DNA of 64,000 nucleotides from Pseudomonadota bacterium (lineage in GTDB: Bacteria; Pseudomonadota; Gammaproteobacteria; Steroidobacterales; Steroidobacteraceae). The position numbers and the translations under genes were made by a program. Under the pieces are notes generated by a model, which searched no databases, had not been told where the DNA came from, and saw only the letters and a list, made by a program, of their open reading frames with translations. Location of the stretch: assembly GCA_021822385.1 (NCBI GenBank), contig JAKARC010000002.1, forward strand, positions 100,352-164,351, written 5' to 3'. Shown piece by piece: positions 24,859 to 43,956 of this stretch. Every line of letters begins with the position of its first letter. The stretch's first letter is position 1.

Positions 24859-25196
24859 CTGCCGCCCCTTTGCTGTGATGTTATCAAATGTGGCAGTGTA
24901 CCCCTTTGATGTGACTGCCGCGAGGCATGAGTCGAACGCGCACCGATTCGACTGGATCGAACGCCTGCTACCGGGACTTCGAGCCAGTGCCCGGCCGACG
25001 GCAGCTGCCGGGTTGACACTCGTCAACGCCTCAAGGCACGCTTATGCATTGCATACCCGCATACCCGCGATCACAGCGGGGCGCTCAGGTATCCCTCGAC
25101 CCGCGCGTGCATCGATGACCAGTCGCAGAATCGCGACGCGCGCGGCGGCTGGACCTACGCGCGACAGCCGGGCGAGGCACGAAGAATCTCAGCGTC
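24859..25196. other. intergenic upstream of the Rieske gene
   Basis: No gene recognised. It contains a dyad ATCAAA (24883-24888) with its reverse complement TTTGAT (24905-24910), 16 bases apart and about 25-50 bp upstream of the Rieske start. A regulator could bind there, but nothing identifies which. Confidence 0.35.
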
Positions 25197-25430
25197 TCAG
25201 CAGGTTGCGAGCTCAATGTGCTCGATGACAAACTCATCACTCGATACGCCGCGCTGGCGCGTGCGAAATGCCGCATATAAAGAGATCGCATCGGCTCCGG
25301 CACGGCGAACTTCGGCGGGCACCTTGGGCACCCGCTTGCGAGTGGCGAAGCGCGATTGAACGATGCCCGTGTCCTCCAGGGTGATCTGCACCGTATCGCC
25401 GCTATCGATGCTATCGACTGTCCCGACCAT
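25197..25430 (-). CDS. small conserved-looking hypothetical protein
   Basis: 77 aa, MVGTVDSIDSGDTVQITLED at the start. The early segment alternates Val/Thr/Ile in a beta-strand-like manner (GTVDSIDSGDTVQITL), possibly a small beta-barrel, and the end is EFVIEHIELATC. Codon use is consistent with a real gene. It precedes the Rieske gene on the same strand by about 340 bp. No family recognised. Confidence 0.5.
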   Translation of the reverse strand: MVGTVDSIDSGDTVQITLEDTGIVQSRFATRKRVPKVPAEVRRAGADAISLYAAFRTRQRGVSSDEFVIEHIELATC

Positions 25431-25667
25431 CTGTCTCGCTCTCCTGCGGTTTGATCCGTCGCAACGCGACCCGCGTGCACACGGCTCGATCTCTACGCAC
25501 GGAGATTAGCGACCGGATACACGCCCTCTTGAAGCGGAATTGCAGAAATCTGCATTGCTGCGGCGCTGCGGCAAGGGTTTGCCGCAGCGCCGGCGGCAAT
25601 GTCGTGCCGCGCACTACAGACGGGGCGGCGGCACGGTGCCGGGACAGGCGGCGTGCACCACGGCACC

Positions 25668-26528
25668 TCAGTGGGTTGGGCACAAACCACTCCTGATGGG
25701 CCAGCCTGAGCGCCGCAGAAACGTCACGGTGGGACGCAACAACTGGGCGACCTGCGCACGCCGTCGGGGGTTACCGAGCGCACGAACACGCCACAGCTGC
25801 GCCGGCCGCATTCCGGCCCGCGCGTACGTCGCCGCGGACGGGAAATACACATATCGCGCGTACAGCTCAATCGTCGCCGATAGCCACGGAGCAAGCAGCC
25901 GTCGCCGCCAGGATGGGCACCGACTCGCACTCAGCTCGCATTGCTCCCGGCCGTAGGCCAGGTGTATCGCTTCGTCGCGCATGTGAATGCACGCGATCCG
26001 ATAGACGACGCTGCTCAGGGTGACCTCCTCCACAGCGCGTCGCAGCCGACGGTTCAGCTGGTCGGGAATTTCCTCGCCTGCGACCGCCATCGCCCAGAAC
26101 AGCGCCGCCTCGCTCGGCACCAGACGACCGAGCGCCTCTGCAAGGCGTGCGCGCACGCTGCGTCCAGCATGAAACCCGTAACCGCTGCGGTGGAGCAACT
26201 CGACGAACATCAGGCTGTGCCCGGCCTCCTCGCGCAACTCGTGCAACAATCGGGCGCGACGCACCACATCCTCGCTGCGCTGCGCCAGGCGCGCCAAGCG
26301 CGCCATGAACTGTGACTCGAGCCAAAGACCCGCTTCGAGCAGGTGCGCGTACTCAAGATGCGAGAGCACTTGCCGTTGGCGCAGCGGCAACGCCTCGAAT
26401 TCCGCCACACCGGCAAGCGACAACAGACTCGGCGGCATCCACCAGCACTCGCGGTCGACCCCCGCCCAATCGATACCGCTCAGCGGATCCTGGTACCGAA
26501 TCTGCGGTAATTCCGCTAGGCTCGACAT
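25668..26528 (-). CDS. AurF-like diiron oxygenase
   Basis: 286 aa from MSSLAELPQI. An all-helical ferritin-like protein with the carboxylate/histidine pattern of p-aminobenzoate N-oxygenase AurF: Glu65 (AHLLEAGLWLE), REEAGH (Glu101...His104), AVAGEEIPD, and MRDEAIH (Glu186...His189). AurF-type enzymes oxidise aryl amines or related substrates at a diiron centre. The start is only 23 bp from the divergent luciferase-like gene. Substrate unknown. Confidence 0.8.
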   Translation of the reverse strand: MSSLAELPQIRYQDPLSGIDWAGVDRECWWMPPSLLSLAGVAEFEALPLRQRQVLSHLEYAHLLEAGLWLESQFMARLARLAQRSEDVVRRARLLHELREEAGHSLMFVELLHRSGYGFHAGRSVRARLAEALGRLVPSEAALFWAMAVAGEEIPDQLNRRLRRAVEEVTLSSVVYRIACIHMRDEAIHLAYGREQCELSASRCPSWRRRLLAPWLSATIELYARYVYFPSAATYARAGMRPAQLWRVRALGNPRRRAQVAQLLRPTVTFLRRSGWPIRSGLCPTH

Positions 26529-26551
26529 GTCGACCTCACGGGAGATGTTCT

Positions 26552-27610
26552 GTGCTGCTCGATCTCTTTTACGAGCTGTCCATGCCTCCCGCGCTGCACC
26601 GTACGGAAGCGCAGGCCTATGCGGATGCACTCGATGAGATCGAGCTCGCCGACCGGCTGGGGTTTCACGGGGTATGGCTGGTTGAGCATCACTTGATGCA
26701 GGGCTATTCGCACCTGTCGAAACCCGACCTGGTACTCGCGGCACTGGCGCGGCGGACCGAGCGCCTGCGGCTCGGCCTGGGCGTCATTCCCCTGCCCTAT
26801 CATCACCCCGTGCACGTCGCCGAACGCATCGGCACACTCGATGTGCTCTCCCGCGGACGGCTCGAGGTCGGCATAGGCCGTGGATTCTCGCCAGACGAAT
26901 ATGCCGCGTTCGGTGTCGAGCCGGCTCAGAGCCGCAGCCTCGTCGAGGAGTCGCTCGCCATCGTGCGGGCAGCGGCCGCAGGCGGACCTATCATTCATCA
27001 CGGCAGGCACTTCAGCCTCGATGGCGTGACCGTCCAGCCGCGTCCGGTGCAACACCCATATCCACCATTGTGGACAGCTGCCGTCAGCCCCGAGACGTTT
27101 GAATGGGCCGCGCGAGAAGGCCTGGGCGTGCTCGCGGGCCCATTCAAGCCATGGCCGATGGTCCACGCCGACCTGCAGCGCTACCGACGTGCCTGGCTGT
27201 CGACCGCACCCCCGCGCATCGGCATGACCGTCGGAGTGCTGTGTCTGCGGGACGGAAAACGCGCTCGCGCGCTCGCGGGACCGGCCTTCCGCTGGTCTTA
27301 TACCCAGTTGCTGCGCGTGACAGCGCCCGTACTCGAGCGACTCGTGCCGAGCTACGAGCACTTTCACCGCCTGAGGCGATACCGGCGGCTGATTGCGGCC
27401 GGCGCCCGATTGCGCGCGCTTGAAGCTCTGGGCCTGGCGGTGGTCGGTACCCCGGACCATTGCCTCGAACGGATTCGCCAGTTCCGCGCTGGCGGTGTCT
27501 CGCATCTGTTGTGCTTCATCGGTGCCGGCGCTCTGCCGAGCGCGGTGGTGCGCGAGTCGCTCGAATGCCTCGCGAGCGCAGTCCTGCCACGCATCGCCAC
27601 GGAGGACTGA
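26552..27610 (+). CDS. luciferase-like (LLM class) flavin-dependent monooxygenase
   Basis: 352 aa with GTG start (MLLDLFYELSMPPALHR), preceded by GGGAGA at good spacing. Bacterial-luciferase TIM-barrel family: LADRLGFHGVWLVEHHL, LRLGLGVIPLPYHHPVHVAERIGTLDVLSRGRLEVGIGRG. It uses reduced FMN and O2; the substrate cannot be read from sequence, and the family includes alkanal, alkanesulfonate and organosulfur monooxygenases. Divergent from the diiron gene and convergent with lipT (11-bp gap). Confidence 0.85.
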   Translation: MLLDLFYELSMPPALHRTEAQAYADALDEIELADRLGFHGVWLVEHHLMQGYSHLSKPDLVLAALARRTERLRLGLGVIPLPYHHPVHVAERIGTLDVLSRGRLEVGIGRGFSPDEYAAFGVEPAQSRSLVEESLAIVRAAAAGGPIIHHGRHFSLDGVTVQPRPVQHPYPPLWTAAVSPETFEWAAREGLGVLAGPFKPWPMVHADLQRYRRAWLSTAPPRIGMTVGVLCLRDGKRARALAGPAFRWSYTQLLRVTAPVLERLVPSYEHFHRLRRYRRLIAAGARLRALEALGLAVVGTPDHCLERIRQFRAGGVSHLLCFIGAGALPSAVVRESLECLASAVLPRIATED

Positions 27611-27621
27611 CCAGCATCGCA

Positions 27622-28782
27622 TCATGCGGCCATTTCCCGCCCGCATCGCCCCTGCCCGTCACCAATCGGCGCCTCCGACCAGTATCCGGGCGATGCGATC
27701 CAACCTCGCCATAGATCCTCGGCCGCGACGCGGCCGCGAGCATGAGCGTCAAGCAGCGCCCGCCGGCGCCTTAACGCACGCCCATACGCGCCATCATAGA
27801 GGTCGGACAACTCGCTCTCGTAGTCATCCACCGCATCCGCGCGGCCGGCGAGCCAATGCGCGGCTGCCCCCCCGGCGAGCGCCCCGGAGCGCACGGCGGC
27901 TTCTATGCCGGCGCCCGTCACCGGATTGGTCAAGCCTGCTGCATCGCCGGCGAGTAACACCATGACGCTGCGCAAACGACCAATGCACCGCAGGCGACCA
28001 CCCGCGGGAATCAACCCCCCCGTCAACGCCAAGCTCGCCGCCGCGGATACGCGGCCCTGAGCCGCGAGCTGCGCCTGCAGCTCATGCACCGATACCTTCA
28101 GCCGGTGCCGGTGGGCGAAATCAAGGCCCACGCCGACATGCGCGCACCGGCCTATCGGAAACAGCCAACCATAGCCGCCCGGATACGCCGCTCGCAGGAA
28201 GATGTCGGTCGCGTGGTATGGCGCGGGCAACGGCAGAGTGATCTGGCGCGCCGCCACCAGCTCGCGATTCACCGTGCCTATCGCACTTCCAACGACCGAT
28301 CTCGGACCATCGGCACCGATCAGGACACGCGCTTCGATCCGCTCCCCGTTCGAAAGACACACGCTCCCGTCCGCACCGACCCTCGATACGGAAACTCCGA
28401 GCCGGATGTGCGCGCCTTGCGCTACCGCCCGCGCCACCAATGTGCGATCGAATTCGGGCCGACAAATCATCCGGCCGTAGAACTGCGCGTTTGTACGCGG
28501 CGCTTGCTGCTCCACCGCACTGATCATGCAACGAATCGGCTGCGCCGTAAGTCCGTCCCAGCCGACACCGTCGACGCTGAAAGCCGCGGACACCAACTCC
28601 GCGCACTGCAGCGGCTCGCCGACGCTGCGCCTGCGATCAACGGCAATCACCCTACAGCCGCCGGCGGCGGCCGCGGCCGCCGCGCTCGCCCCCGCCGGCC
28701 CGAGCCCGACCACCAGAACCAGCGGCCGCGCTTGGCCGCTTATGGACCGCGGCTCGACGGCGGCATTCTGCGGCAAGGACAC
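27622..28782 (-). CDS. lipT: LipT-like FAD-dependent oxidoreductase (geranylgeranyl-reductase family)
   Basis: 386 aa, GTG start, weak ribosome site. The FAD-binding N-terminus VLVVGLGPAGASAAAAAAAGG, the middle motif VLIGADGPRSVVG and the second FAD motif VMVLLAGDAAGLTNPVTGAGIEAAVRSG place it in the GGR/UbiH-like superfamily. Such a flavoprotein, named LipT, accompanies sLpl-LipS1-LipS2 lipoate-assembly genes in sHdr sulfur oxidisers, where it is proposed to supply electrons to the LipS proteins. It is last in the shdr-lbpA run, 17 bp after the regulator. Confidence 0.8.
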   Translation of the reverse strand: MSLPQNAAVEPRSISGQARPLVLVVGLGPAGASAAAAAAAGGCRVIAVDRRRSVGEPLQCAELVSAAFSVDGVGWDGLTAQPIRCMISAVEQQAPRTNAQFYGRMICRPEFDRTLVARAVAQGAHIRLGVSVSRVGADGSVCLSNGERIEARVLIGADGPRSVVGSAIGTVNRELVAARQITLPLPAPYHATDIFLRAAYPGGYGWLFPIGRCAHVGVGLDFAHRHRLKVSVHELQAQLAAQGRVSAAASLALTGGLIPAGGRLRCIGRLRSVMVLLAGDAAGLTNPVTGAGIEAAVRSGALAGGAAAHWLAGRADAVDDYESELSDLYDGAYGRALRRRRALLDAHARGRVAAEDLWRGWIASPGYWSEAPIGDGQGRCGREMAA

Positions 28783-28799: not shown

Positions 28800-29159
28800 T
28801 CAGCGACGCTTCGGACAGAACTGTTGATGCAACGTGCGCATCAGGGCAGCCACTTCCTTGCTAGCGAGCACATAATAGACAGACTGCCCGCGCCGATGGG
28901 CCTCGACAACATGATGCTCGCGCAACAGCGCCAGATGTTGCGACACCGCCGACTGGCTGATACCAACGTCGGCCTGCAGTTCATTGACGGACTTTGCGCC
29001 CTCTGCCAGCAAGCATACGAGCATCAACCGCACCTTGTTCGCGATGACCTTGAGCACCTCACTCGCCCGGTCAACACTGCCCTGAAGCTCGGACAGCTCG
29101 CCGGGCCGCAAACTGACGGCGAGCTTCTGCACTACCGCCGTCTGGTCGCGCCCGCTCAT
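28800..29159 (-). CDS. shdrR: ArsR-family persulfide-responsive repressor, sHdrR-like
   Basis: 119 aa from MSGRDQTAV; ATG overlaps the lbpA stop (ATGA). Winged helix: VLKVIANKVRLMLVCLL, the recognition helix SQSAVSQHLALLREHHVV, and the wing RRGQSVYYVL. Cys49 (LMLVC) and Cys115 (HQQFC) are 66 residues apart, the same spacing as the sulfane-sulfur-sensing cysteine pair of SqrR (Cys41/Cys107). This argues that it senses reactive sulfur and derepresses the cluster. It is unusual in being inside the operon, between lbpA and lipT. Confidence 0.85.
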   Translation of the reverse strand: MSGRDQTAVVQKLAVSLRPGELSELQGSVDRASEVLKVIANKVRLMLVCLLAEGAKSVNELQADVGISQSAVSQHLALLREHHVVEAHRRGQSVYYVLASKEVAALMRTLHQQFCPKRR

Positions 29160-29599
29160 CCGGCACAACCGGCAAAGCCATCGGCGGTCATCTTGGCTTC
29201 ATACGGCGCCGCGATGGCCGTCCCCGGCACAAGCGCAGGCCGGACCGCCGCCCACTCCTGCGGCTGGATGACCAGCAGCCAGCCCTTTTCATACGGATCC
29301 TCATTGGCGATCGCCGGACTCGCCACCATGGCCTCGTTGACGGCCACAACTGAGCCACCACAGGCGAGTTTCGCCGGCCCCACCCACTTGCCCGACTCGA
29401 CCGTCGCGCACGACTTGCCGGCTTTTATTTCCTTGCCGACTGCCTTTGGCGTAAAGGCCACCAGCCGGCCCGCCATGGCCGTCGCCACCGCGGTCATGCC
29501 GACTTTGACGGTGCCGTCGTCGAGCTCCTGATACCAGATATGATTCTGCACGTCATACAACAGGTTGTCCGGAAGATTGCACCCACGTACCTTGGCCAT
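29156..29599 (-). CDS. lbpA: lipoate-binding protein LbpA (GcvH-like) of sulfur oxidation
   Basis: 147 aa, GcvH-like lipoyl carrier. The lipoylated Lys is predicted at 71 in ATVESGKWVGP. Unlike glycine-cleavage GcvH, there are no gcvP/gcvT genes here and the gene is embedded with hdr-like genes. This is the hallmark of LbpA, which works with the sHdr complex in oxidising sulfane sulfur to sulfite. Extra Cys residues (Cys7, Cys64, Cys79, and Cys145 in GFAGCAG) are worth noting. A C-terminal extension after WLLVIQPQEW resembles that of other LbpA proteins. Confidence 0.93.
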   Translation of the reverse strand: MAKVRGCNLPDNLLYDVQNHIWYQELDDGTVKVGMTAVATAMAGRLVAFTPKAVGKEIKAGKSCATVESGKWVGPAKLACGGSVVAVNEAMVASPAIANEDPYEKGWLLVIQPQEWAAVRPALVPGTAIAAPYEAKMTADGFAGCAG

Positions 29600-32636: not shown

Positions 32637-33683
32637 TCAGGCGCTCGCCTGCGTCGGCAGCGTCAACGCCAGGGCGCGCACGGCCGCCGCGTGACCTTGC
32701 GCAATCGAGTCGTCGATCGTCTCCGGACCACAGGCCGCGCCGGCCACGAAAACCCCCGCGCGCGAGGTCTCCGCGGTGTTGCCATACGAGTTGCCGCGCG
32801 CAAGATATCCGTGGGTCTCGAGAGCGACGCCAAAGATCTGCGCAATGGCGCCGTTATCAACGTTCGGATCCATGCCGATGGCGTGCACCACCAGGTCGAA
32901 TGGAATGGTGATCGGCCGCTTCACCAGGGTGTCTTCACCCTTCACAATGAGCTTCTGCCCGTCGGAGGTGACCTCGGCAATTCGCGCCTTGATGTACTTG
33001 ACCTTAAATTCCTCCTGGCTGCGCCAGTAGTACTGCGTCTCATAGAGACCGAAGGTCCTGATGTCCATGTAGTAGATGTACACGTGACAGCCCGGCAGTT
33101 CCTGGCGGATCTCCATGGCAATGTTTGCCGAGACCGTACAACAGACTTTCGAGCACCACGGCCGCCCAATCTGTCGGTCGCGCGAACCAACGCACAGCAG
33201 GATCGCAACGCGTTCCGGCTTACGGCCGTCGGAGGGACAGCGCACGCCCCGGCCCGATGCGATCATCTGCTCAACCTGAGTCGTTGTCACGACGTCCGCA
33301 AAGGTCCCGAAGCCCCATTCGGGTTTATTCAGCGAGTCGAAATGGGTGAATCCCGTGCACAGAATTGCTGCGGCCACCTCGATGCGCCTGCCATCGGACA
33401 ACTCTGCCGTGAAATTGCCGGGCGCGCCGGTAAAAGTCTTAACCGTGGTGCCAAGATGAATGCTGGCCCGCCGTTCCTGCTGCACCCGAGCGACCATCCC
33501 CCCAATGGCGTCCTTGGCCCACTCCCCGGAGGGTACCAATCGGGCATAGCCGGAGAGGATCGGTGCCCCACCAAGTCGCGAATTCTTTTCAACCAGTACC
33601 GCCGGTTGACCAACTTGCGTCAGCGCCCGCGCTGCGGCGAGACCCGCCGGCCCTCCGCCGACAATCAGGATTGGTCGGCTCAT
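32637..33683 (-). CDS. hdrA: heterodisulfide-reductase-like flavoprotein sHdrA
   Basis: 348 aa, shorter than archaeal HdrA (about 650), as expected of sHdrA. FAD-binding SRPILIVGGGPAGLAAARAL and VEKNSRLGGAPI, then CVGSRDRQIGRPWCSKVCC with conserved cysteines, and AGVFVAGAACGPETIDDSIAQGHAAAV at the end. It overlaps hdrB1 by 4 bp. Proposed flavin/FeS electron hub of the cytoplasmic sHdr complex that oxidises protein- or LbpA-bound sulfane sulfur. Confidence 0.94.
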   Translation of the reverse strand: MSRPILIVGGGPAGLAAARALTQVGQPAVLVEKNSRLGGAPILSGYARLVPSGEWAKDAIGGMVARVQQERRASIHLGTTVKTFTGAPGNFTAELSDGRRIEVAAAILCTGFTHFDSLNKPEWGFGTFADVVTTTQVEQMIASGRGVRCPSDGRKPERVAILLCVGSRDRQIGRPWCSKVCCTVSANIAMEIRQELPGCHVYIYYMDIRTFGLYETQYYWRSQEEFKVKYIKARIAEVTSDGQKLIVKGEDTLVKRPITIPFDLVVHAIGMDPNVDNGAIAQIFGVALETHGYLARGNSYGNTAETSRAGVFVAGAACGPETIDDSIAQGHAAAVRALALTLPTQASA

Positions 33684-35050
33684 TCAGCGTGCCCCGCTGC
33701 CGGCACCGAAGGCTTGAAGCCGGGACCGGAGGTGATTTTTCGCCGCGGATCATACAGCGTCTCGCTCCGACCGGCCGCGACCTGCTGCAGATAGGTCTCG
33801 AACTCGGCCTTGCGTGCCGGCCAATCGATGCCGAGCTTCTCCATCAGCGTCTCTGTTGGCGAGGCGTGCCAATGCGATTGCACGATCTTATAGGGATGCG
33901 CACCGCAGACGAGCGCAGCGAACTGGCAATCGGCCAAAACCGGCAGGCTAACCGGCCGGCCATCCGCCTTGCTGATCCATTGATTCTTGTCAAGTGTGGT
34001 GATGCAACCGGTGTCGTGGCCGATCATCACATCAGCGTGCGCCTGCTCCACCGCGACGCGAATCTTGCGATCAATGGCAAACGAGCGCGTGAACTCGCGC
34101 TCGGAAATGATGTGCCGGAAGCCGAAGCCACAGCAGTCGTACCAGGTCTCGTAATCAATGACCTGCGTGCCGAGTGTCTGCATGATGCCGGTCGAAACGG
34201 CGACGCGGTTGCCATCCAGCACCTTGTCATCGTAGATGACATCCTCGGGCACCATCTTGTACACATGACAGGCCGGATGCACGGTCACTCGGATCTGGCT
34301 GCAATCGATGGTCTGCAGCTTCTTGACCTCTTCGCGCACAACATGCAGCCACTCGGCATAGTGCACGATTTCCTCCGGTATCAGCAGCTTCCCGTCGACC
34401 AGCCGGCCAAGCTTGCCGAGAATCTGCCGCATTCGCTCGCGCAATTTCCCCGATTGCAACAAGTAGCCGCGCACTTCTTTGTAATTGCCGAAAGAAGTGC
34501 CGCAGTGCACCAGGGGATAATAATAGCCGGCCGGCAGGCCCTGCGCTTGGGCGGCCACGTATGCCTGGTGAAAATTGCGCAGGAACACCGCAGCGAGGCT
34601 CTCGATGTTACCGATGCCCGAGCCATGATAGTTCCACGCGGTACACGAGGTCTGGTCGGTCTCATCCAGATACTCCGTGCCCAGGCGATTCATGAGCCAC
34701 AGGAGCGAGGCCGGATAGCCAGGAATATTGCCGCACTGGCCGCAGGATTTATGGTGCCATAGCCGCAGCGTTGGAATCTTCTTTTCCCACCCGTACAGGG
34801 TGCGAACCAGCACCGGCTTGTGCTCCTCGGTGACACGGTGCACCACGATCTCCCCGTCCTTCTCGAGCTGCCACATGGCATCGCGGACATCGGCCACCCG
34901 GTCCTTGCCGGTGAGCATGGAGCGCCGGTTGATGACCTGCTCCACCCAGGCCGTGGCCACCTGCGCATCCTTGCCGGCAAGCCGACTGCTCCGCCACTCG
35001 GGACCATGACCGGTGAAACGCTCGCCCGGAATATGCTCATCTGCTGTCAT
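33680..35050 (-). CDS. hdrB1: heterodisulfide-reductase-like subunit sHdrB1
   Basis: 456 aa. HdrB-like with cysteine motifs HHKSCGQCGNIPGYP, HPACHVYK, YDCCGFGFRH, GHDTGCITTLD and DCQFAALVCGAHP. It is larger than hdrB2 because of an N-terminal region (HIPGERFTGHGPEW onward) found in sHdrB1. Located between hdrC1 and hdrA. With HdrC1 it forms one of the two HdrBC-like modules. Confidence 0.93.
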   Translation of the reverse strand: MTADEHIPGERFTGHGPEWRSSRLAGKDAQVATAWVEQVINRRSMLTGKDRVADVRDAMWQLEKDGEIVVHRVTEEHKPVLVRTLYGWEKKIPTLRLWHHKSCGQCGNIPGYPASLLWLMNRLGTEYLDETDQTSCTAWNYHGSGIGNIESLAAVFLRNFHQAYVAAQAQGLPAGYYYPLVHCGTSFGNYKEVRGYLLQSGKLRERMRQILGKLGRLVDGKLLIPEEIVHYAEWLHVVREEVKKLQTIDCSQIRVTVHPACHVYKMVPEDVIYDDKVLDGNRVAVSTGIMQTLGTQVIDYETWYDCCGFGFRHIISEREFTRSFAIDRKIRVAVEQAHADVMIGHDTGCITTLDKNQWISKADGRPVSLPVLADCQFAALVCGAHPYKIVQSHWHASPTETLMEKLGIDWPARKAEFETYLQQVAAGRSETLYDPRRKITSGPGFKPSVPAAGHAE

Positions 35051-35113: not shown

Positions 35114-35869
35114 TTACGCCTCCGCCTGCTCTGCCTGCTCCTCCTGCCACTCAGAATACTCATCACGCTTATCCTCCATGATGTCCCGGATCACGTCGAA
35201 AAGATTGGGATCGATCGTCTCCAGACTATCGATCACACCGGTTTCCTCCCAGATCGTATACAACTCGACCGAGGTCTTAAGATTAACCTCCCAGGCGGTC
35301 TTGGTGGTGTGCAGAGTCGGCACCGGGATCGCTTTGCGCAGCACCTCAAGCGGCGCGTCGACCTTGGAGATATTCGGTCCCCAGTCCGGAAACGCATCCC
35401 GACTGATCATGTCCGGCGAAAGCTGGTTGCCGGTCGAGATGAGCTTCAACATGACACGACTGAACGGGCGCAACACGTTCTTGGCCGACTCCATGCCATG
35501 CTTGATCGCCACCTCCCGCATCAGCATCACCAGCCCGCCCGGCGAGTTTCCAAACGGGCAGCGCGCTGCGCAGGTGTAGCACTGCGCGCACGCCCAGATC
35601 TTCTCCTGCATCGCATCGTAGATGCCTTCGAGATTTTCCGTCCACAACAGCTGCACGATCTCGCGCGGACTGTAGTCGTAGTAATGCGCCGACGGACAGG
35701 TCGCAGTGCAGATGCCGCAATTGAGGCAACCGTTGAGTTGGTGATCGAATCTGAGGTCGGACTGAATGTCCTGGAATATCGCCTCGAGTTTGGTTCGGTC
35801 GAGCGGCGCATCTGCGGACACCGGATCGCCGATGTGCTCCTGAACTCTGCTCGTGTGCTCGTGCGTCAC
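35114..35869 (-). CDS. hdrC1: heterodisulfide-reductase-like iron-sulfur subunit sHdrC1
   Basis: 251 aa, GTG start. Two [4Fe-4S] motifs: CLNCGICTATCPSAHYYDYSP and CAQCYTCAARCPFGNSPGG. The C-terminus is strongly acidic (EDKRDEYSEWQEEQAEQAEA). It begins about 20 bp after the dsrE stop and is followed by hdrB1 after 63 bp. Confidence 0.93.
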   Translation of the reverse strand: MTHEHTSRVQEHIGDPVSADAPLDRTKLEAIFQDIQSDLRFDHQLNGCLNCGICTATCPSAHYYDYSPREIVQLLWTENLEGIYDAMQEKIWACAQCYTCAARCPFGNSPGGLVMLMREVAIKHGMESAKNVLRPFSRVMLKLISTGNQLSPDMISRDAFPDWGPNISKVDAPLEVLRKAIPVPTLHTTKTAWEVNLKTSVELYTIWEETGVIDSLETIDPNLFDVIRDIMEDKRDEYSEWQEEQAEQAEA

Positions 35870-35889: not shown

Positions 35890-36267
35890 TCAGTAGCTGA
35901 GCACTCGATAGTCATCGTCCATGACACGCTCGATCAGGTACGCGCCACCGATGATGCCACTGCACTCGGGAATCAGATCCTCCTGCGTCATGCCGAACAG
36001 ATCGAGGTTCGGCGAACAGCACCAGAACTTCACCCCCGCCTCGTGCGCGTCCTTGATGAAATCCAATACCGATTTCGGCGAACCGTTCTTCACGAACAAC
36101 TGCTCGGCGACGCCCTTGCGCAGGAGTCTCCCGGCGGTTGCAGTGCACACGACCTCGACTTCAAAATCCATCGCCGCCGCCACGGTTGCCTGGAATATCG
36201 GCGCGCCCAGCTCCTCCCCATTGCGTGGATCGGTGTTGGCCATCACGATGATCAGCTTAGATGCCAT
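35890..36267 (-). CDS. DsrE-family sulfur carrier at head of shdr operon (DsrE3C-like)
   Basis: 125 aa DsrE/F fold: KLIIVMANTDPRNGEELGAPIFQATVAAAMDFEVEV. Candidate sulfur-carrying cysteines are the adjacent pair Cys83-Cys84 (KFWCCSPNL) and Cys102 (IPECSG). DsrE3C-type proteins pass sulfane sulfur with TusA to the sHdr complex. First gene of the shdr operon, downstream of an 85-bp AT-rich spacer that is the likely promoter. Confidence 0.88.
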   Translation of the reverse strand: MASKLIIVMANTDPRNGEELGAPIFQATVAAAMDFEVEVVCTATAGRLLRKGVAEQLFVKNGSPKSVLDFIKDAHEAGVKFWCCSPNLDLFGMTQEDLIPECSGIIGGAYLIERVMDDDYRVLSY

Positions 36268-36352: not shown

Positions 36353-37105
36353 TTAGCCGTTGGCGTCAAGCTTTACCGACTGCTCGTTGACATCAGCCAC
36401 CGCCATCAGCCGCAGTGCCTGGGTCAGGCCCGCCATCACCGCCGCGAGCGCCGCCTCGATCTCGGTCTGCACGGCCCTGAGCTCATGCAGAGCCGCGGCG
36501 GTGTCGGCCGGCGTCTCGGCGAACTCCATGATCAGATCCTCGATGATGGCCGACTTGATGCCCGGGTGACCGGCAAAGCCAAAGGCGCGCTCACCGAGCT
36601 GAAACAGCGCCCAGCGCAGTCGTTCGTCGCGCGCGAGCACCTGCGCCGCTTCCGGTAACGCCACTGCATCACGTCCGTAGCGCACCACCGGATAACGGTC
36701 CGGCAACCACCCACCCAGGGCATGCGCCACAATGCGCCGAGCCACGCCGACTTCGAAGGTGAGCGCGCCGGCACGGGCACTACCGCCGGCCGCAAGCGCC
36801 AGCACCTGGGCGCCAAGTCCGAATCCGAGCACAGGAACCCCGTCGGCAAGCGCAGCCTTAACCAGTGCCATCTCAGGTTCGAGCGAAGGCAGGCAGGTCG
36901 CGCCCGGCACGACGCCCCACGGACCGCCCCCGAGCAACACCAACCCGTCGACGATCTCGGCCGGACGGGGCAGCCGTCCGCCCGCGGTGAAGGGACGGAA
37001 GTATCGAAACCGTATGCCGCGCCCCTGCAGATGCTCTTCGATGTAACCGAGATACTCCGCTGCGGTGTGCTGAATGACAGCGAGGTTCTTCGCGGCTGTG
37101 GACAT
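36353..37105 (-). CDS. class-I glutamine-amidotransferase-like protein lacking the nucleophile
   Basis: 250 aa. The fold is recognisable by IVDGLVLLGGGPWGV, PVLGFGLGAQVLALAAGG and FGFAGHPGIKSAIIEDL. The catalytic elbow normally reads G-I-C-x-G-H-Q; here it is GFGLGAQ, so the nucleophilic Cys is Gly96 and the following His is Ala. The His-Pro-Glu triad segment is HPGI. It therefore cannot be a standard glutaminase and may bind a ligand or act structurally. It lies 7 bp after sLpl. GATase-like genes occur near lipS genes in related loci as far as I recall. Confidence 0.8.
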   Translation of the reverse strand: MSTAAKNLAVIQHTAAEYLGYIEEHLQGRGIRFRYFRPFTAGGRLPRPAEIVDGLVLLGGGPWGVVPGATCLPSLEPEMALVKAALADGVPVLGFGLGAQVLALAAGGSARAGALTFEVGVARRIVAHALGGWLPDRYPVVRYGRDAVALPEAAQVLARDERLRWALFQLGERAFGFAGHPGIKSAIIEDLIMEFAETPADTAAALHELRAVQTEIEAALAAVMAGLTQALRLMAVADVNEQSVKLDANG

Positions 37106-37112
37106 GATGCTG

Positions 37113-38192
37113 TCAGGCCGCCGGTGCCGCCAGGGCCGCCTCGATCGAGCGGCGAAAATCCGCGGCAGTTACCGACAACATACTCGCCGGATACTCGCGA
37201 AAAAACCCCTCGATCGTCACACTGGCGGCCTCGGCATCCACACCGCGCAGACGGCTCTCCAAATCAAATACCAGCCGTGGCGGAGCAACAAAAAAATCCC
37301 CGCTGATCAGCACCTGACCAATCCGCCGGCCACCGGGTCCCTCACGCCGCACGTGCGTGGTGATCGTCCCGCCGGGTCCCGTGGCCGTTCCGGTTGCGAT
37401 GTATCCATCGCTCGGCGGACCGTCGATCTCGGTGACGAACTGCTCCTGTCCAATCTGTGCGTCATGCAGCTGCCGCCCACGCTCGAGCAGAACCCGCTGC
37501 TCGGCGGCGCCCGCGGAAACAAAGGTCAAGCCCAGTTGCTGCTGAAATCCCCACAGCAATGCCTGCTCAACTTGCCCCATGCTCGGTGTCTGCGCTCCCA
37601 TCAGCTCACGCAGACTCACCACGCGCTGCGCGGGCGAGTCGAGTCCGTGCCGGAGCATCTTGGCCCGTGGCACGCGCAACGCACCCAGCATGGCTGTGCT
37701 GTCGAGGCCGATAAGCACCGTGCCCTGATAGAGCAGCGTATCGCCGTCGAAAAACCCTCCCGTTCCGCCGATTTTACGGCCTCCGACCTCCAGATCGTTG
37801 CGTGGGCGAAACCGCACCTCGACCCCAAGACGGCTGAGGCCCGCCGCCGCCGCCTCGCACACCGAGCGGGCCACCTCCGCAAGGGCGCCGCTGCCAAGGG
37901 CACCGCGCTGAAACACGAGCGCCCAGCCGAGCTGCTGCGGATCGAGATAGATGGCGCCGCCGCCAGTGATGCGCCGCCCCACTTCGACACCGTTGCGCCG
38001 GCAGAACTCCAGATCGATCTCAGCGCTCAGCGACTGATGGCGGCCAACCAGCGCACTCGGTTGAAACTGGATGAAGCGCAACGCGTCGCCCAGCTGGCCG
38101 GCTTGGTGCAGCTCGAGCATCGCCTGGTCGAGGGCGATGTTGAATCGTCCCCGCCTCACACCGGTAGCGAAAACGTGCACTGGCCCGCTCAC
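37113..38192 (-). CDS. slpl: sLpl lipoate-protein ligase of the sulfur-oxidation system
   Basis: 359 aa from a GTG start that overlaps the preceding stop (GTGA) and has GGAGGA just upstream. LplA-type catalytic domain: RRITGGGAIYLDPQQLGWAL (73-92) and the essential Lys140 in GGRKIGGTGGFF, then a C-terminal accessory domain (residues about 255-359), so it is of the full-length sLpl(AB) type. It attaches lipoate or an octanoyl precursor to LbpA. Operon with LipS-type radical-SAM genes. Confidence 0.9.
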   Translation of the reverse strand: MSGPVHVFATGVRRGRFNIALDQAMLELHQAGQLGDALRFIQFQPSALVGRHQSLSAEIDLEFCRRNGVEVGRRITGGGAIYLDPQQLGWALVFQRGALGSGALAEVARSVCEAAAAGLSRLGVEVRFRPRNDLEVGGRKIGGTGGFFDGDTLLYQGTVLIGLDSTAMLGALRVPRAKMLRHGLDSPAQRVVSLRELMGAQTPSMGQVEQALLWGFQQQLGLTFVSAGAAEQRVLLERGRQLHDAQIGQEQFVTEIDGPPSDGYIATGTATGPGGTITTHVRREGPGGRRIGQVLISGDFFVAPPRLVFDLESRLRGVDAEAASVTIEGFFREYPASMLSVTAADFRRSIEAALAAPAA

Positions 38193-39448
38193 GCGTCCTC
38201 CTGCACCACCGGTACGGCAAGCTGTCGCCGGATGCGGCGTACATCCGCGCGGTTCGGCGCGAATGGAAAACTTGCGATATCGCTCGGCGGCGAATCTCCG
38301 TATGGCCGATCGCACGCCGAAATGTCATCCCGAAACTTGCCGGGACAACCGGAGGTGCGAAAGGCCACACCCGCATCGATAACCCGATCAAGCTCCGCTC
38401 TGGGCAGGCCGAAGTCAACGACCCGGCCCTGCGCATCGAAGCGCATCTGCTCATACCTTACCCCGGCGTAGTCGATCAGGTAGCGCGCGAGTTGCACGCG
38501 CCGCCACTGGTCGCGCGGCGTGGCCGGCAGGTGATCCATGAGCGAGCCTTGCTCGGGAAAGAAACAGAACAGGTGACTGTGCCCGCCGAGATCAACCAGC
38601 TGTTGTACCAGGCGCAATGCCTCGTACTCCGTCTCGCCCATCCCAATAATGACGTGCGCGCCGAACTTCTGCGGCCCGAACACATCACGGGCTGCAAGGA
38701 GGATTTCCCAGTATTTGCTCCACTTGTGCGGCGACTGCACGCCTTTGCCGCGGGTACGATCGAAGATCGCCGGAGTTGCCGCATCGAGCGCCACCGTGAA
38801 TATGTCGGCACCCAGATCTCTCAGTCGAATCACATCCTGCCGACTCATGGTGGTGGGGTTAGAGAGAATCGAGACCGGGATGGAGAGCGGATCGATGCGC
38901 CGCGTCCATGCACTTAAGACTGACACCGTATCGGCATCCGAGCGCGGGTGAGTAATCATCGAAATGCACATGCGGTGAAAAGGGCTCGCTGTCCCCGCGC
39001 GTGCCACAATCTCGACGATCTGTTCCACCGGCACTGCCGGCCAGTCGACGCGAATGAAATTCCGATCGGCGTAGTCACGCTCGGCCTCGCGGTGACGCGC
39101 GAGGCCGCAATAGGCGCAGTTGGCGCGGCAACCCTCCGGGTAGGTCAGCAGCAGGTTCAGACATCGTGTGCACCCGCACCGGTGCATGCGCCCTGGCATC
39201 AGCCCAAGTGTCATTGCCGCCGCCGTGGAAATCTGCACGTACTCCGGCGAGCGCATGTGCGGTGCCAACATGTTGTTGTTCGGGAGGTAGACTCCCCGCG
39301 GCGCAACGTCGGCCGACTTGACAGGCGCGCCATTGCGCCGTTGTGGCGGAGTGGGCGCCGGCGCTCGCGGCTGCATTGCCGCAAACGCATTGAATTCACC
39401 GGCCGCCCCGATGCGCGGCTCTTGCGCCTTGGTCGAACGGCAACTCAT
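38189..39448 (-). CDS. LipS-type radical-SAM protein, second of pair
   Basis: 419 aa from MSCRSTKAQ; ATG overlaps the previous stop (ATGA). The radical-SAM motif is EGCRANCAYCG (Cys107, 111, 114), with an upstream cysteine group CGCTRC (Cys91, 93, 96) and a late GCPGKF...ISAC, likely auxiliary-cluster ligands. Biotin-synthase-like downstream segments (GAHVIIGMGETEYEAL, LFCFFPEQGSLM). Together with the preceding gene it fits the LipS1/LipS2 pair that inserts two sulfurs into octanoyl groups. I cannot say which is LipS1. The ORF can be extended upstream, but that part is the other gene in another frame. Confidence 0.85.
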   Translation of the reverse strand: MSCRSTKAQEPRIGAAGEFNAFAAMQPRAPAPTPPQRRNGAPVKSADVAPRGVYLPNNNMLAPHMRSPEYVQISTAAAMTLGLMPGRMHRCGCTRCLNLLLTYPEGCRANCAYCGLARHREAERDYADRNFIRVDWPAVPVEQIVEIVARAGTASPFHRMCISMITHPRSDADTVSVLSAWTRRIDPLSIPVSILSNPTTMSRQDVIRLRDLGADIFTVALDAATPAIFDRTRGKGVQSPHKWSKYWEILLAARDVFGPQKFGAHVIIGMGETEYEALRLVQQLVDLGGHSHLFCFFPEQGSLMDHLPATPRDQWRRVQLARYLIDYAGVRYEQMRFDAQGRVVDFGLPRAELDRVIDAGVAFRTSGCPGKFRDDISACDRPYGDSPPSDIASFPFAPNRADVRRIRRQLAVPVVQEDA

Positions 39449-40509
39449 GCTGAAGCCTCCGCCTGTGCCCCAGTCGCCCGCGCGCAGGCACGGCCGGCCG
39501 ATGGCGCACGGCCGGGCAACTGCAGCGAACAACACGCGTGCTGCTGCTCGCTGCGGCGACCGATTGCCGCCGCGACCGCAACCGCGCCATCGGCCGGGAA
39601 TGCGATGCCGTCGAGACCGGCCAGCACTGCATAGGTGTCCGTGATGCGCTTGTGCATTCCGGGCGGTCGGGCGCAACCGAGCAGCACGCGCCGCTGCGGC
39701 AAGCGAGCACGCGCCTCGGCAAACAGCCTCCCGACCGTGCCGGGATCGGGAACAGCGAAGGTTCCCGGCGCCGCGTAGTGTGGCATCACGACCACGAGCA
39801 CCAAGGCATCGATCGGATAGCGGCTCACGATCTGTAACGCGGCGGACTCCCCGCGCACCATACCGTAGTGCAATCCGATGACGATATGCGGCGTCACCTG
39901 CATCGTGGTCGCGCACAAGGCCGCGAGCGTCGCTTCGAAATCCGCCACCGGCCGTTCGAGGTGGTACACCTCGCGAATGGTCTCCTGCGCACCAATCACG
40001 TCCATCATCGCGGTATCGACGCCCGCGGCCTCCATCGCGCGCGCGCCGCTGCGGTCCGTGAGCGCCGTGTGGATCGCGATGCGCAGGTACGGATGTTCAC
40101 GCTTCAGCCGCTCGATCACCGGATAGAACCGCTCGTAGTGAATCTCATTGCGCCGGTTGGAGCCGCCCGAGAGCAGAAACCCCCGCAGTCCCGCGCACGC
40201 GATCAGCTCGCGTACCTTACTTTCGAGCATCTGCGGCGAAGTTGCCGGCAGCATCGGCTCGAGAATTTTTGCCCGACAGTGGTCGCAGTTAAGAGCACAG
40301 GCGCCGGCAGTGACCGAGAATGCCGGGAAGCTGTTCCTTGTGCACCCGCAGAGCTCGCTGCTGGCATACGCCTTGAAGGTCGGGGTCGAGAAGCGTACCG
40401 ATCGTGCCACCGCCACCGCGCCGTCGCGCTCCAGTTCGGCCACGAGGCCCGCATCGAAGGCAGCGCCCTCGAGATCCTCAATTGCCTGCAATTTCTCCAA
40501 CCAGCTCAT
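39445..40509 (-). CDS. LipS-type radical-SAM protein, first of pair
   Basis: 354 aa from MSWLEKLQAI, preceded by GGGGGTG; an in-frame ATG at 40524 is the alternative. Radical-SAM motif CALNCDHC (Cys71, 75, 78) and two earlier cysteines in ELCGCTR (Cys54, 56) that could bind an auxiliary cluster. TIM-barrel segments: LRGFLLSGGSNRRNEIHYERF, IAIHTALTDR. Ala/Arg-rich C-terminus. Translationally coupled to both the HDAC-like gene and the second LipS-type gene. Lipoyl-synthase role inferred from context and the sLpl/LipT neighbours. Confidence 0.85.
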   Translation of the reverse strand: MSWLEKLQAIEDLEGAAFDAGLVAELERDGAVAVARSVRFSTPTFKAYASSELCGCTRNSFPAFSVTAGACALNCDHCRAKILEPMLPATSPQMLESKVRELIACAGLRGFLLSGGSNRRNEIHYERFYPVIERLKREHPYLRIAIHTALTDRSGARAMEAAGVDTAMMDVIGAQETIREVYHLERPVADFEATLAALCATTMQVTPHIVIGLHYGMVRGESAALQIVSRYPIDALVLVVVMPHYAAPGTFAVPDPGTVGRLFAEARARLPQRRVLLGCARPPGMHKRITDTYAVLAGLDGIAFPADGAVAVAAAIGRRSEQQHACCSLQLPGRAPSAGRACARATGAQAEASA

Positions 40510-40514
40510 GCTCT

Positions 40515-41639
40515 TCACCCCCATGCTGTAACCGCTGCAGGCGGTCCCAGGAGCGCGGTCACGGCGGCGCGCACCGGTCCCTCGTGCGGCGGATCGGCGA
40601 GCGTGCACAACCACCGCGGATCAACCGCCTCATCGTCGATGAGCTCGCTCGACAGACCTGCCAGAATACGCCGCGCCGCAGACGGCAGGCGGTCGGGAAT
40701 CTTCCGGCCGCTCAGTCGTCCCCACAACCCCGTCCAGCACCGCGCCACCGTCCAGGGATTGTAGCCACCGCCGCCGAGCACAACGGCGGCCGGCGCCGTC
40801 CGCACCAGCGCCTCGACCGCCCGCCACAGCGCCGCGTTGCTCAACGCAAGACCGCACAGCGGATCACCGGCCAACCCATCGACACCACAGGTAATAACCA
40901 CGGCCTGCGGCCGCAGGGCGCGCGCATACGGCAACAGTGCGGCGCGCAGCAGGAACCGCAGCTCCGTGTCGTTGAAACCCCGGGGCACGGGGAAATTCCT
41001 CGAGCGGCCGCCGCCAAAATCATCCACAGCGCCGGTGAACGGCCAGCGTTTTGCCTCGTGAATCGACAGGGTGTGGATGCGCGGATCGTCACGCACCGCA
41101 TCCTGCACACCGTCGCAGTGATGGGCATCAAGATCAACATACAGGATACGCTTCAGGCCGCGCTCAGCGAAACCACGCAGCGCGAACACCGGGTCATTGA
41201 AGTAACAGAAGCCACTGGCACGGCCCGGACGACCGTGGTGAGTGCCGCCGGCCGGATGAAACACGACATGCCCCTCAAGCGCCAGCTCGACCGCACGCAC
41301 CGAGCCCCCGACGGTCGCCGCAGCGCGGGCAAACACTCCGGGAAACACCGGATTCTCTCTCGTTCCTATCCCAAAGCGCTCGCGTATGTCGATCGTGGCG
41401 AAACCTGCCGCATCCGCCGCTTGCAGAGCAGCGATGTACTCCGTGCTGTGGAAACGGCCAAGTTCCAGTTCCGTGGCCGCGGGACTGTCGCGCATTTGCC
41501 TGTCATCGAGCCAGCCCAGGGCTGCGCACAGCGCAAGCACCGTTCTAAGCCGCGGAATAGACAAAGGATGTCCGGCACCGAAACCCGGCGCACTCGCCGC
41601 TGTTCCAACGATCAACAGCGCTTGCTCGCTTGCTCGCAT
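40515..41639 (-). CDS. class-I HDAC/AcuC-like zinc deacylase
   Basis: 374 aa arginase/deacetylase-fold enzyme. The active site is intact: His134-His135 in GGTHHGRPGRASGFCYFND, zinc ligands Asp171 and His173 in DLDAHHCDGV, the third Asp in GVDGLAGDPLCG, and the catalytic Tyr in LGGGGYNPWT. AcuC deacetylates acetyl-CoA synthetase in Bacillus, but no acs gene is present. It is the first gene of the lipoate-assembly operon and overlaps the LipS-type gene, which suggests a lysine-deacylase role on a lipoyl or acyl-protein in this pathway. Substrate unproven. Confidence 0.88.
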   Translation of the reverse strand: MRASEQALLIVGTAASAPGFGAGHPLSIPRLRTVLALCAALGWLDDRQMRDSPAATELELGRFHSTEYIAALQAADAAGFATIDIRERFGIGTRENPVFPGVFARAAATVGGSVRAVELALEGHVVFHPAGGTHHGRPGRASGFCYFNDPVFALRGFAERGLKRILYVDLDAHHCDGVQDAVRDDPRIHTLSIHEAKRWPFTGAVDDFGGGRSRNFPVPRGFNDTELRFLLRAALLPYARALRPQAVVITCGVDGLAGDPLCGLALSNAALWRAVEALVRTAPAAVVLGGGGYNPWTVARCWTGLWGRLSGRKIPDRLPSAARRILAGLSSELIDDEAVDPRWLCTLADPPHEGPVRAAVTALLGPPAAVTAWG

Positions 41640-41758: not shown

Positions 41759-42274
41759 ATGAGCGCGCCAACCGACAGTGGCACTGCGTATGCAGCTGCC
41801 AAGCGCATGTCCATCATCGTCACCAAGGGGTCGCTCGACTGGGCGTATCCACCGTTCATCCTGGCCACAACCGCGGCAGCGATGGGCGTCGATGTCACGA
41901 TGTTCTTCACCTTCTATGGACTGCCGCTGCTGCTGAAGAATCTCGATCTGAACATCTCCCCGCTCGGCAATGCCGCGATGAAGATGCCCCTTGCCGGTAT
42001 GCACATGACCATGCCGAACATCGCGTGCATGATTCCGGGGGTCGATGCGGCCGCTTCGCGCCTGATGAAAAACCTGATCAAAAAAAAGGGTGTCGCATCC
42101 ATTACCGAGCTGCGCGCACTCGCGGTTGAGGCAGGCGTACGCATGATTGCCTGTCAGATGACACTCGATCTGTTCGAATACAAGCTCGAGGACATGATCG
42201 AGGGGCCAGAGCTTGGCGGCGCGGCCACCTACATCGAGGTCGCGACGCAGGCGCAAATCAATCTGTTCATTTGA
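41759..42274 (+). CDS. dsrE2: DsrE2-family protein
   Basis: 171 aa. DsrE2-like sequence: MSIIVTKGSLDWAYPPFILATTAAAMGVDVTMFFTFYGLPLL, then GMHMTMPNIACMIPG (Cys90) and AGVRMIACQMTLDLFEY (Cys132), the latter the family's conserved cysteine. DsrE2 proteins occur with tusA (often plus a rhodanese) in sulfur oxidisers and take part in trafficking sulfane sulfur. Divergent from the lip operon, followed by tusA after 28 bp. Confidence 0.9.
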   Translation: MSAPTDSGTAYAAAKRMSIIVTKGSLDWAYPPFILATTAAAMGVDVTMFFTFYGLPLLLKNLDLNISPLGNAAMKMPLAGMHMTMPNIACMIPGVDAAASRLMKNLIKKKGVASITELRALAVEAGVRMIACQMTLDLFEYKLEDMIEGPELGGAATYIEVATQAQINLFI

Positions 42275-42302
42275 ACCGTGTAACGCTCCCGGTGATCCTA
42301 CC

Positions 42303-42530
42303 ATGGTAGATCAGACTCTCGACGCCAAAGGCCTCAATTGTCCGCTGCCAATTCTGCGCGCCAAGAAGGCGCTGCAGACCATTCCCGTTGGCGGCACTCT
42401 CGAGGTCCTCGCGACCGACCCCGGCTCGGTCAAGGATTTCCAGGCCTTCTGCAACACCACGGGCACGGAGCTCGTCGAGTCCGGGCAGCAAGGCACCACC
42501 TATCGGTTTGTCCTACGGCGCAAGCATTGA
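42303..42530 (+). CDS. tusA: sulfur-carrier protein TusA (copy 1)
   Basis: 75 aa, MVDQTLDAKGLNCPLPILRAKKAL. The Cys-Pro-x-Pro motif (Cys13) binds sulfane sulfur. TusA is the central cytoplasmic carrier delivering sulfur towards sHdr or Dsr systems. Directly downstream of dsrE2 and 64 bp before the FadL-like gene. Confidence 0.95.
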   Translation: MVDQTLDAKGLNCPLPILRAKKALQTIPVGGTLEVLATDPGSVKDFQAFCNTTGTELVESGQQGTTYRFVLRRKH

Positions 42531-42594: not shown

Positions 42595-43956
42595 ATGAAA
42601 CACCAAGTGTTCTTGGCGAGCATGCTTGGATTGTCATTGCTGGCGGCAGTGGCGCACGCAACCAACGGCTACTTTACCGACGGCGTCGGTGTGAAGAGTA
42701 TGGGGCTTGCCGGCGCCGGCAGTGCCGATCCGAGCGAGACGATGATCATGGCCACCAATCCGGCCGGGCTTGCCTTTGTGCCGGATGATCTGGAGGTAGG
42801 TCTCGAGCTGTTCAGCCCGGATCGAAGCTACAGCACCTCCGCGAGTCAGGCCGATGGTGAGGGGGGTGCCTTCACGATCGGCCCGAACAGTCTGGTCAGC
42901 GCCGACCGACTCTTTCCAATTCCCTACATCGCGATCAGACGACGGATCGACGCGCAGAACAGCCTGGGTGTCGCCTTCTATGGTCGCGGCGGCATGGCCA
43001 CCAGCTGGTCGGGCGGCACGGCAACCTTCGCCGCTGGTCCAGGTGCGCCGGTGCGCACATTGAGCGGAACTTTCGGGGCGGGCGATGCCGGCGTGAATCT
43101 CATGCAGGCATTTCTCAACGTCGGATTCGCACACCTCAGTGCGGACCGGCACTTTGCTGTGGGCGTGTCCCTGATCTTTGCGGCACAGCGATTCACCGCA
43201 AACGGCCTTGGTGCCTTCGCCGGCTATACCGAGGCGTTCGCTGCAAGTGGCGGTACCGTCATGCCACGGGCGCTCTCGAACACCGGTGCCGATATGGCCT
43301 ATGGGGGTGGTGCCTCGGTCGGCATCGAGTGGCGACCGCTGCCGCGCTGGGCTGTCGCTGCGGCCTATACCTCCAAGATGTACATGTCACGGTTCACCCG
43401 CTACAGCGATCTGTTCGCCGGGCACGGTGCCTTCGACATCCCGGCGAACGCCACGTTTGGATTGACTTTCAAACCCCGGCCGTCGCTCGCATTGGATTTC
43501 GACACGCAGAGAATCTGGTACGGCTCGATCGCCGCGATTGCCGATCCAGTCCAGAACATCTTCGGTTGTCCGACCGCCGGGGCCGGCGGCACGGACCTCG
43601 CCGATTGTCTCGGCGGGGCCACCGGTGCCGGATTCGGCTGGCAGAACATGACTATCTACAAGTTCGGCGTCAACTGGCGCGTCGATCCCACCTGGACCGT
43701 GCGCTTCGGCGCAAGCCACGGCGCGCAACCGATTCCATCGTCACAGATGACCTTCAACATCCTCGCCCCCGGGGTCATTGAAGATCACTTCGCCCTCGGC
43801 TTCACGCACCATGGCGCGCGCGGGGATTTCAGTGCCGCCTTCACCTATGCGCCCACGCAGACGATCAGCGGTCCGAACACGTTTGATCCGACGCAGACCA
43901 TCAGGCTGAGCATGCATCAGTTCATCGTCGATTTCGGCTACGCGTGGAAGACTTGA
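42595..43956 (+). CDS. FadL/OmpP1-family outer-membrane channel
   Basis: 453 aa. The signal peptide is cleaved near AHA|TNGYF; the mature N-terminus TNGYFTDGVGVKSMGLAGAGSADPSETMIMATNPAGLAFV is the FadL/TodX family signature (hatch/NPAG motif), followed by an amphipathic beta-barrel ending in a Phe/Tyr-rich strand (FIVDFGYAWKT). FadL-type channels pass hydrophobic molecules. The position after dsrE2-tusA makes uptake of hydrophobic sulfur species or fatty acids possible; substrate unknown. Confidence 0.9.
   Translation: MKHQVFLASMLGLSLLAAVAHATNGYFTDGVGVKSMGLAGAGSADPSETMIMATNPAGLAFVPDDLEVGLELFSPDRSYSTSASQADGEGGAFTIGPNSLVSADRLFPIPYIAIRRRIDAQNSLGVAFYGRGGMATSWSGGTATFAAGPGAPVRTLSGTFGAGDAGVNLMQAFLNVGFAHLSADRHFAVGVSLIFAAQRFTANGLGAFAGYTEAFAASGGTVMPRALSNTGADMAYGGGASVGIEWRPLPRWAVAAAYTSKMYMSRFTRYSDLFAGHGAFDIPANATFGLTFKPRPSLALDFDTQRIWYGSIAAIADPVQNIFGCPTAGAGGTDLADCLGGATGAGFGWQNMTIYKFGVNWRVDPTWTVRFGASHGAQPIPSSQMTFNILAPGVIEDHFALGFTHHGARGDFSAAFTYAPTQTISGPNTFDPTQTIRLSMHQFIVDFGYAWKT

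Follow-up and report, generated by a model that had tools for sequence, protein, structure and literature searches.

An intact gene for a class I (HDAC/HDLP-type) zinc-dependent deacylase (374 aa; positions 40515–41639, minus strand) heads a set of lipoate-assembly (lip) genes in the 64,000-nucleotide stretch of DNA analyzed here (the window), and its homologues recur with the same lip genes in many other genomes. The explanation that we favor, tentatively and at somewhat below even likelihood, is that this enzyme is an accessory C8-acyl-lysine deacylase (acting on octanoyl, mercaptooctanoyl or lipoyl groups) of the sLpl-LipS1/S2 cassette found in sulfur oxidizers with sHdr, and that it would reset the lipoate acceptor LbpA and return free C8 acid to sLpl. 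We infer a C8-acyl-lysine as the substrate, LbpA as the protein, and editing or recycling, as opposed to regulation, as the direction.

The deacylase matches PF00850 (E 6.3e-68), and HDLP is its best solved relative. Directly downstream, all on the minus strand, lie lipS1 (radical SAM lipoyl synthase 1, 39445–40524; NF053742, E 7.2e-55, under the curated cut-off), with an ambiguous start (ATG 40524, GTG 40518 or ATG 40509), lipS2 (radical SAM lipoyl synthase 2, 38189–39448; NF053743, E 1.5e-53, under the curated cut-off), an sLpl(AB)-type lipoate/octanoate:protein ligase gene (37113–38180; PF21948, E 3.4e-41; LplB model NF053749, E 5.4e-10, under cut-off) and lipX, coding for a class I glutamine-amidotransferase-like protein (36353–37105; PF00117, E 2.4e-5) named after passages of PMC10332631. 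The same strand continues with a DsrE-like sulfurtransferase (35890–36267; PF13686/PF02635), sHdrC2-like (35114–35869; Fer4 families, HdrC models under cut-off) and sHdrB2-like (33680–35050; PF02754) proteins, both labels being our own reading, an sHdrA-like flavoprotein (32637–33683; PF07992, E 2.8e-18), the presumed lipoate acceptor LbpA (29156–29599; GCV_H PF01597, E 1.2e-29, at 29225–29557, i.e., C69:129576-129908) and a lipT-like FAD oxidoreductase (27622–28782; PF01494, E 8.6e-12), whose homologues in other loci separate lipS1 from lipS2. By our own labels the shdr content is of type I (shdrC1, B1, A, H, C2, B2). Divergent dsrE2 and tusA genes (41759–42530, plus strand; PF13686, E 4.9e-47, and PF01206, E 1.4e-22) adjoin the deacylase here, as they do in most lip-linked loci.

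The sequence-only reading had described a full set of zinc-deacylase catalytic residues, a gene at the head of a lipoate-assembly operon and no acetyl-CoA synthetase close by, and this description is borne out. The domain match and residue map show all eight catalytic and zinc residues kept (among them zinc ligands D171, H173 and D254 and catalytic H134/H135 and Y293), which rules out a degenerate enzyme; the lipS1-lipS2-sLpl-lipX series follows directly; and a genome search placed AcsA on another contig (C67, the window being on C69), so that acsA proximity of the AcuC kind is not found and an AcuC-AcsA pair is ruled out. The genome also carries a second HDAC homologue and LipB. Two further reading frames of the window were read by eye: a small ORF beside lbpA (28800–29168, minus strand) as an ArsR-type regulator, possibly sHdrR, and an ORF after tusA (42595–43956, plus strand) as FadL/OmpP1-like, which may be a lipY-like porin for C8 acids; the ORF at the matching position of locus L034 has a Toluene_X match. 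Past the lipT/lbpA end of the sHdr locus, on its downstream side (23773–26744, minus strand), two oxygenase genes follow, one for a Rieske/VanA-type enzyme and one for an AurF-like diiron N-oxygenase, neither with an obvious role in sulfur oxidation.

For scoring linkage to lip genes, the lip and hdr proteins of the window were run by tblastn against the loci of the best 80 of 402 relatives, taken from a scan of one genome per species and belonging, by record titles, to the gamma-, beta- and alphaproteobacteria; since only these 80 were kept, the figures hold for close relatives. In 61 of the best 80 of 402, lipS1 stands directly next to the deacylase on the same strand; it lies 0.4–4 kb downstream on the same strand in 5 more and elsewhere in the locus in 3, a different lip gene alone is present in 1, and the remainder comprise 7 deacylase loci with no lip gene and 3 contig ends. 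A search of these 10 remaining genomes for LipS2 found it elsewhere in the assembly in 6 and not at all in 4; two of the 6 belong to the contig ends, where the cassette may simply be broken in two. Linkage to the cassette is thus conserved across many genomes, and dsrE2 or tusA lies no more than 3 kb upstream of the deacylase in 54 of the 70 loci with room. Co-occurrence elsewhere, on which the sequence-only reading had staked its proposal through a neighborhood survey, was found when that survey was run (the 61 of the best 80). FadL-type genes occur in 11 of 17 clustered lip-linked loci (one representative scanned), and sLpl is the protein whose pairwise distances correlate most strongly with those of the deacylase (r 0.81 over 40 loci, a comparison without a neutral control gene). 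Of 84 loci, 65 had a geometry that allowed a check for an HDAC-LipS1 fusion, and none of these showed one. Two loci with lip genes beside the deacylase (L101 and L108) come from metagenome bins titled Bordetella parapertussis, titles that look wrong.

Genome samples extend this picture beyond close relatives. At E<=0.001 the LipS2 family model matched 122 of the 147 genomes in the order sample, none over its cut-off, as well as 11 of 14 control genomes, and because these weak matches are so broad only those with E<1e-50 were counted; this threshold and that of E<1e-60 used below were chosen after gaps in the match lists were visible. Some HDAC match occurs in 123 of the 147 order genomes, and by the strict thresholds the deacylase (E<1e-120) is present in 9 and LipS2 in 10, with both in 8 and the two adjacent in 7. 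The exceptions are instructive in their detail: G066 (same genus, 99% complete) has the cassette and no deacylase; in G066 and G114 dsrE2 sits directly beside lipS1 with no deacylase in between; in G114 and G134 the deacylase is found at a different site, beside genes read as nuo from their lengths only; G134 (97% complete) has no strong LipS2 match; and in G141 the contig with the cassette is 3.4 kb long and breaks off within lipS2. In the phylum sample (n=398), LipS2 (E<=1e-30) is found in 8 genomes, 7 of which have a deacylase at E<1e-100 that adjoins lip genes in every case (in G150 the deacylase's own contig holds lipS1 and part of lipT), and the eighth, G147, has LipS2 and no deacylase. 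Another 18 genomes of this sample have a deacylase (E 1e-114 to 1e-96) and no LipS2 match. The deacylase is hence not confined to LipS1/S2 genomes: LipS2 is missing in 18 of the 25 phylum-sample genomes with strong deacylase homologues (all 18 in a sister clade discussed below) and in the 4 genomes noted among the 80 loci.

In the class sample (n=369; LipS1 at E<=1e-40, HDLP-type deacylase at E<1e-60, the deacylase list holding 22 genomes below this threshold and nothing between 4.6e-69 and 1.6e-46), 20 genomes carry both genes, 6 LipS1 only (G574, G584, G708, G716, G795 and G836), 2 the deacylase only (G721, 97% complete, and G861, 75% complete) and 341 neither. An HDLP-type deacylase is thus present in 20 of 26 LipS1 genomes vs. 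2 of 343 others (Fisher p 1e-25, genomes treated as independent). As kinship inflates this p value, the spread over families is the sounder evidence: 14 of 17 LipS1 families include at least one deacylase carrier, and in 13 of 17 all sampled members carry it. Co-occurrence therefore holds in a sample not selected for the deacylase, and the surveys of relatives and genome samples together rule out a chance neighbor.

In most class-sample genomes that carry both genes, the sHdr-lip genes are ordered differently, forming a second architecture. In 24 of the 26 LipS1 genomes, LipS1 is at 47–58% identity and the order is lbpA-lipS1-sLpl in 24 of 24 loci, with a lipT match within a short flank in 17 of the 24. 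No deacylase was found inside the 1.5-kb flanks of lipS1 in these 24 loci, and 18 of the 24 genomes have an HDLP-type homologue elsewhere (E<1e-68, 38–45% identity). In 7 of these 18 it lies 9–19 kb from lipS1 on the same strand (approximately 3e-9 by chance under a simple model); in the other 11 it is at 31 kb (2), far off on the same contig (2) or on another contig (7). The deacylase is preceded by a CbbQ-type AAA gene and an 845-aa gene in 11 of 20 regions (one representative of each scanned), the 845-aa protein (L229:14156-16693) having no Pfam or NCBIfam match, and an aldo/keto-reductase cluster gene is present in 14 of 20 (one representative scanned). Together with a FadL-type gene, a second gene of the ligase-like kind (LplA-B_cat) separates lipS2 from the deacylase in L224, L225, L226, L229 and L230; the LplA-B_cat protein at L225:11869-12945 is distinct from sLpl.

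Phylogenetic analysis separated the deacylases accordingly. A homologue had been extracted from 205 loci, many of them overlapping; 94 of these plus the window, HDLP and HDAC8 went into a 97-row tree, and the same rows minus HDAC8, one identical row and 14 others into an 81-row tree, rooted on common-type paralogues. In the 81-row tree, lip-linked rows, unlinked exceptions and Robiginitomaculum rows form one clade (100/99), and a non-lip sister clade (97/93) and a second-architecture group (99/98) stand apart. Unlinked copies, at approximately 70% identity, nest within the lip-linked clade of the 97-row tree, which makes a move out of the cassette simpler than a move in. Three genomes (L033, L035/L117 and L037/L118) have 73%-identical deacylase copies at one shared site outside the cassette, and L115 and L119 are same-genus cassettes with no deacylase. 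HDLP, on a long branch, pairs with the second-architecture group (82) in the 97-row tree and is basal in the other; its firm membership in the lip-linked clade is unsupported, as it falls outside that clade and its placement differs between trees. The 18 sister-clade genomes belong to classes other than that of the window and are taken as Alphaproteobacteria. Ten neighbor proteins from 5 of these 18 loci (NUDIX, DUF1178, DUF192, NDUS4, a short-chain dehydrogenase, an amino-acid kinase with ACT domains, two glycosyltransferase types, an ABC permease and an alpha/beta hydrolase) look like products of housekeeping genes.

The predicted model of the window deacylase has a fold nearest to that of HDLP, then to HDAC1-3 and 8. 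A structure alignment covered the window and 31 of the 80 kept loci. In the residue map, none of the groups shows any variation in the catalytic columns. At the rim, E95 is a glutamate in all lip-linked (42/42), moved (4/4), Robiginitomaculum (8/8) and second-architecture (16/16) rows, and the same column in the 18 sister rows reads S in 10, G in 5, D in 2 and T in 1 (acidic in 2/18). The lack of the rim glutamate in the sister clade (L159-L176), which has no LipS2, hints at another substrate there. By our own reading of the alignment, E95 appears to correspond to D101 of HDAC8, an acetyllysine-binding residue according to passages of PMC5454378, which also describe the matching residues of HDAC10 as tolerating mutation without substantial effect. 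Tunnel residue W199 is a tryptophan throughout the 18 sister rows and in 41 of the 42 lip-linked rows; HDLP has F198 in its place, and relative to HDLP the window deacylase also has a two-residue deletion. The structure of HDLP of Aquifex aeolicus, reportedly the first of its family to be solved (1999), is the closest solved one (PDB 1c3p/1c3r), and the organism likewise has an Hdr-like complex and LbpA.

The chemistry of C8 deacylation is plausible by analogy with AcuC of Bacillus subtilis, placed by passages of Graf et al. 2024 (PMC11532494) in class I, cluster 2c. Like AcuC, the window deacylase is a class I zinc enzyme with XGGxHH and GGGY motifs (GGGLHH/GGGY in AcuC as published there in part, AGGTHH/GGGY as the foot-pocket motifs here); unlike AcuC, it has no AcsA nearby and is linked to lip and shdr genes. 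The same source reports in part that, among the peptides tested, AcuC cleaved the octanoyl-lysine peptide best, with low overall efficiency, and that open foot pockets accompany longer acyl chains. Its main text holds no word starting with lipo, so lipoyl-lysine was probably absent from its substrates.

Passages of PMC10332631 describe sLpl as accepting only free octanoate or lipoate and lacking octanoyltransferase activity, with sulfur inserted after it by LipS2 and then LipS1; in E. coli with a lipS1-slpl(AB)-lipT-lipS2 helper plasmid, the LbpA product stopped at the mercaptooctanoyl form. This stop implies that stalled intermediates can exist, and the modification of LbpA there without a deacylase gene implies that the enzyme is dispensable for the early steps. 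We propose that the deacylase would use zinc, and no NAD, to hydrolyze C8 acyl groups (octanoyl, lipoyl or a stalled mercaptooctanoyl) off the lysine that carries them in LbpA, or off proteins that the ligase has mis-acylated, and that dead-end intermediates would thereby be cleared and apo-LbpA and free C8 acid handed back to sLpl. The E. coli result, the 6 of 26 LipS1 genomes lacking the enzyme and the sister clade lacking LipS2 all argue for an accessory role, and C8 removal with return of the acid to sLpl fits a non-essential gene travelling with the cassette.

Other functions overlap with this one and the likelihoods that we attach to them are not mutually exclusive. An AcuC-like deacetylase reactivating an acetylated pathway enzyme (sLpl, the LbpA lysine or an Hdr subunit) would act on acetyl, a usual substrate of the family, and has a precedent in the reactivation of AcsA by AcuC reported in passages of PMC11532494; we nevertheless regard it as unlikely, given a second HDAC homologue already in the genome (and HDAC matches in most order genomes), foot-pocket motifs of a kind open to longer chains, and no acetyltransferase recognized among the scanned neighbor proteins.

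The regulatory lipoamidase, or eraser, of the sequence-only reading, which would strip lipoate from LbpA and so switch sulfur oxidation off, draws on the same genomic linkage as editing does and on lipoyl-lysine being an acyl-lysine, yet its activity is putative, the sister clade lacks LipS2, and a place at the operon head among assembly genes would have eraser and writer produced together, so that we give it a rather small probability. What stands of that claim is the recurrent sHdr-lip membership and the plausible AcuC-like chemistry; a strict eraser fits poorly with the 18 of 25 genomes without LipS2 and the 6 of 26 LipS1 genomes without the enzyme. Joined as it is to genes for making the cofactor, the deacylase is as compatible with editing or recycling as with erasing.

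A supply enzyme, providing sLpl with octanoate or lipoate cut from the octanoyl- or lipoyl-lysines of peptides or proteins other than LbpA (GcvH, E2) as part of a two-enzyme stand-in for a LipL-type relay, would suit the restriction of sLpl to free precursors, the LipB of the window's genome and the FadL-type genes of lip-linked loci; it is a slightly more doubtful proposal, since LbpA is modified in E. coli without the deacylase (though E. coli may supply octanoate) and the same 6 LipS1 genomes manage without it. Finally, a passenger with an unrelated housekeeping role, kept in the cassette by co-transfer, would explain the sister clade, the cassettes without a deacylase and a movable position (beside prfA or pheST genes in some genomes, nuo-like-length genes in others), but is very improbable against an association seen in two architectures and 14 of 17 LipS1 families and the same place and strand in 61 of the best 80 of 402 relatives.

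Returning to C8-acyl editing on LbpA, the proposed reaction has relatives of other kinds. Sirtuins require NAD, and the window deacylase is a zinc enzyme of another fold with putative activity; Enterococcus Lpa, an amidase, has a third fold. The removal of lipoyl from lysine is nonetheless common to our proposal and to these known lipoamidases (Lpa and the sirtuins CobB, SrtN and SIRT4) as presented in parts of PMC5596343. The window has the published sLpl(AB)-LipS1/S2-LipT-LipX cassette (Cao 2018, PMC6067878; Tanabe 2023, PMC10332631) together with LbpA, and differs in the deacylase, an accessory member unlisted in the main texts of both papers. The word deacetylase is absent from the main texts of PMC10332631, PMC6067878, PMC12423496 and PMC11582611, and among the matches listed for the open-access PMC literature we found no paper tying a deacetylase to sHdr or lipoate, nor one linking histone deacetylase with lipoate, heterodisulfide reductase or sulfur oxidation, although figures or supplements may still show or name the gene. 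Within these open main texts and listed matches, the earlier statement that no HDAC role had been described in the sHdr-lipoate pathway agrees with what we found.

Overall, a widespread gene of the lipoate module, absent from the open-access sHdr/lipoate main texts searched, points to acyl removal or recycling on LbpA, a step that the literature passages on sHdr and lipoate do not treat. A wider reading, in which zinc-dependent lipoamidases or de-octanoylases form a dedicated family for editing or erasing the lipoyl cofactor that serves sulfur oxidation, a family that includes HDLP and gives it a physiological role, seems to us fairly doubtful, if worth keeping in view. Bacterial class I deacylases are less well understood than eukaryotic ones, as passages of PMC11532494 point out, and the association described here offers a concrete candidate substrate for them, possibly for HDLP too. 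It may also account for the source of free C8 acid for sLpl, or for the rescue of stalled mercaptooctanoyl-LbpA.
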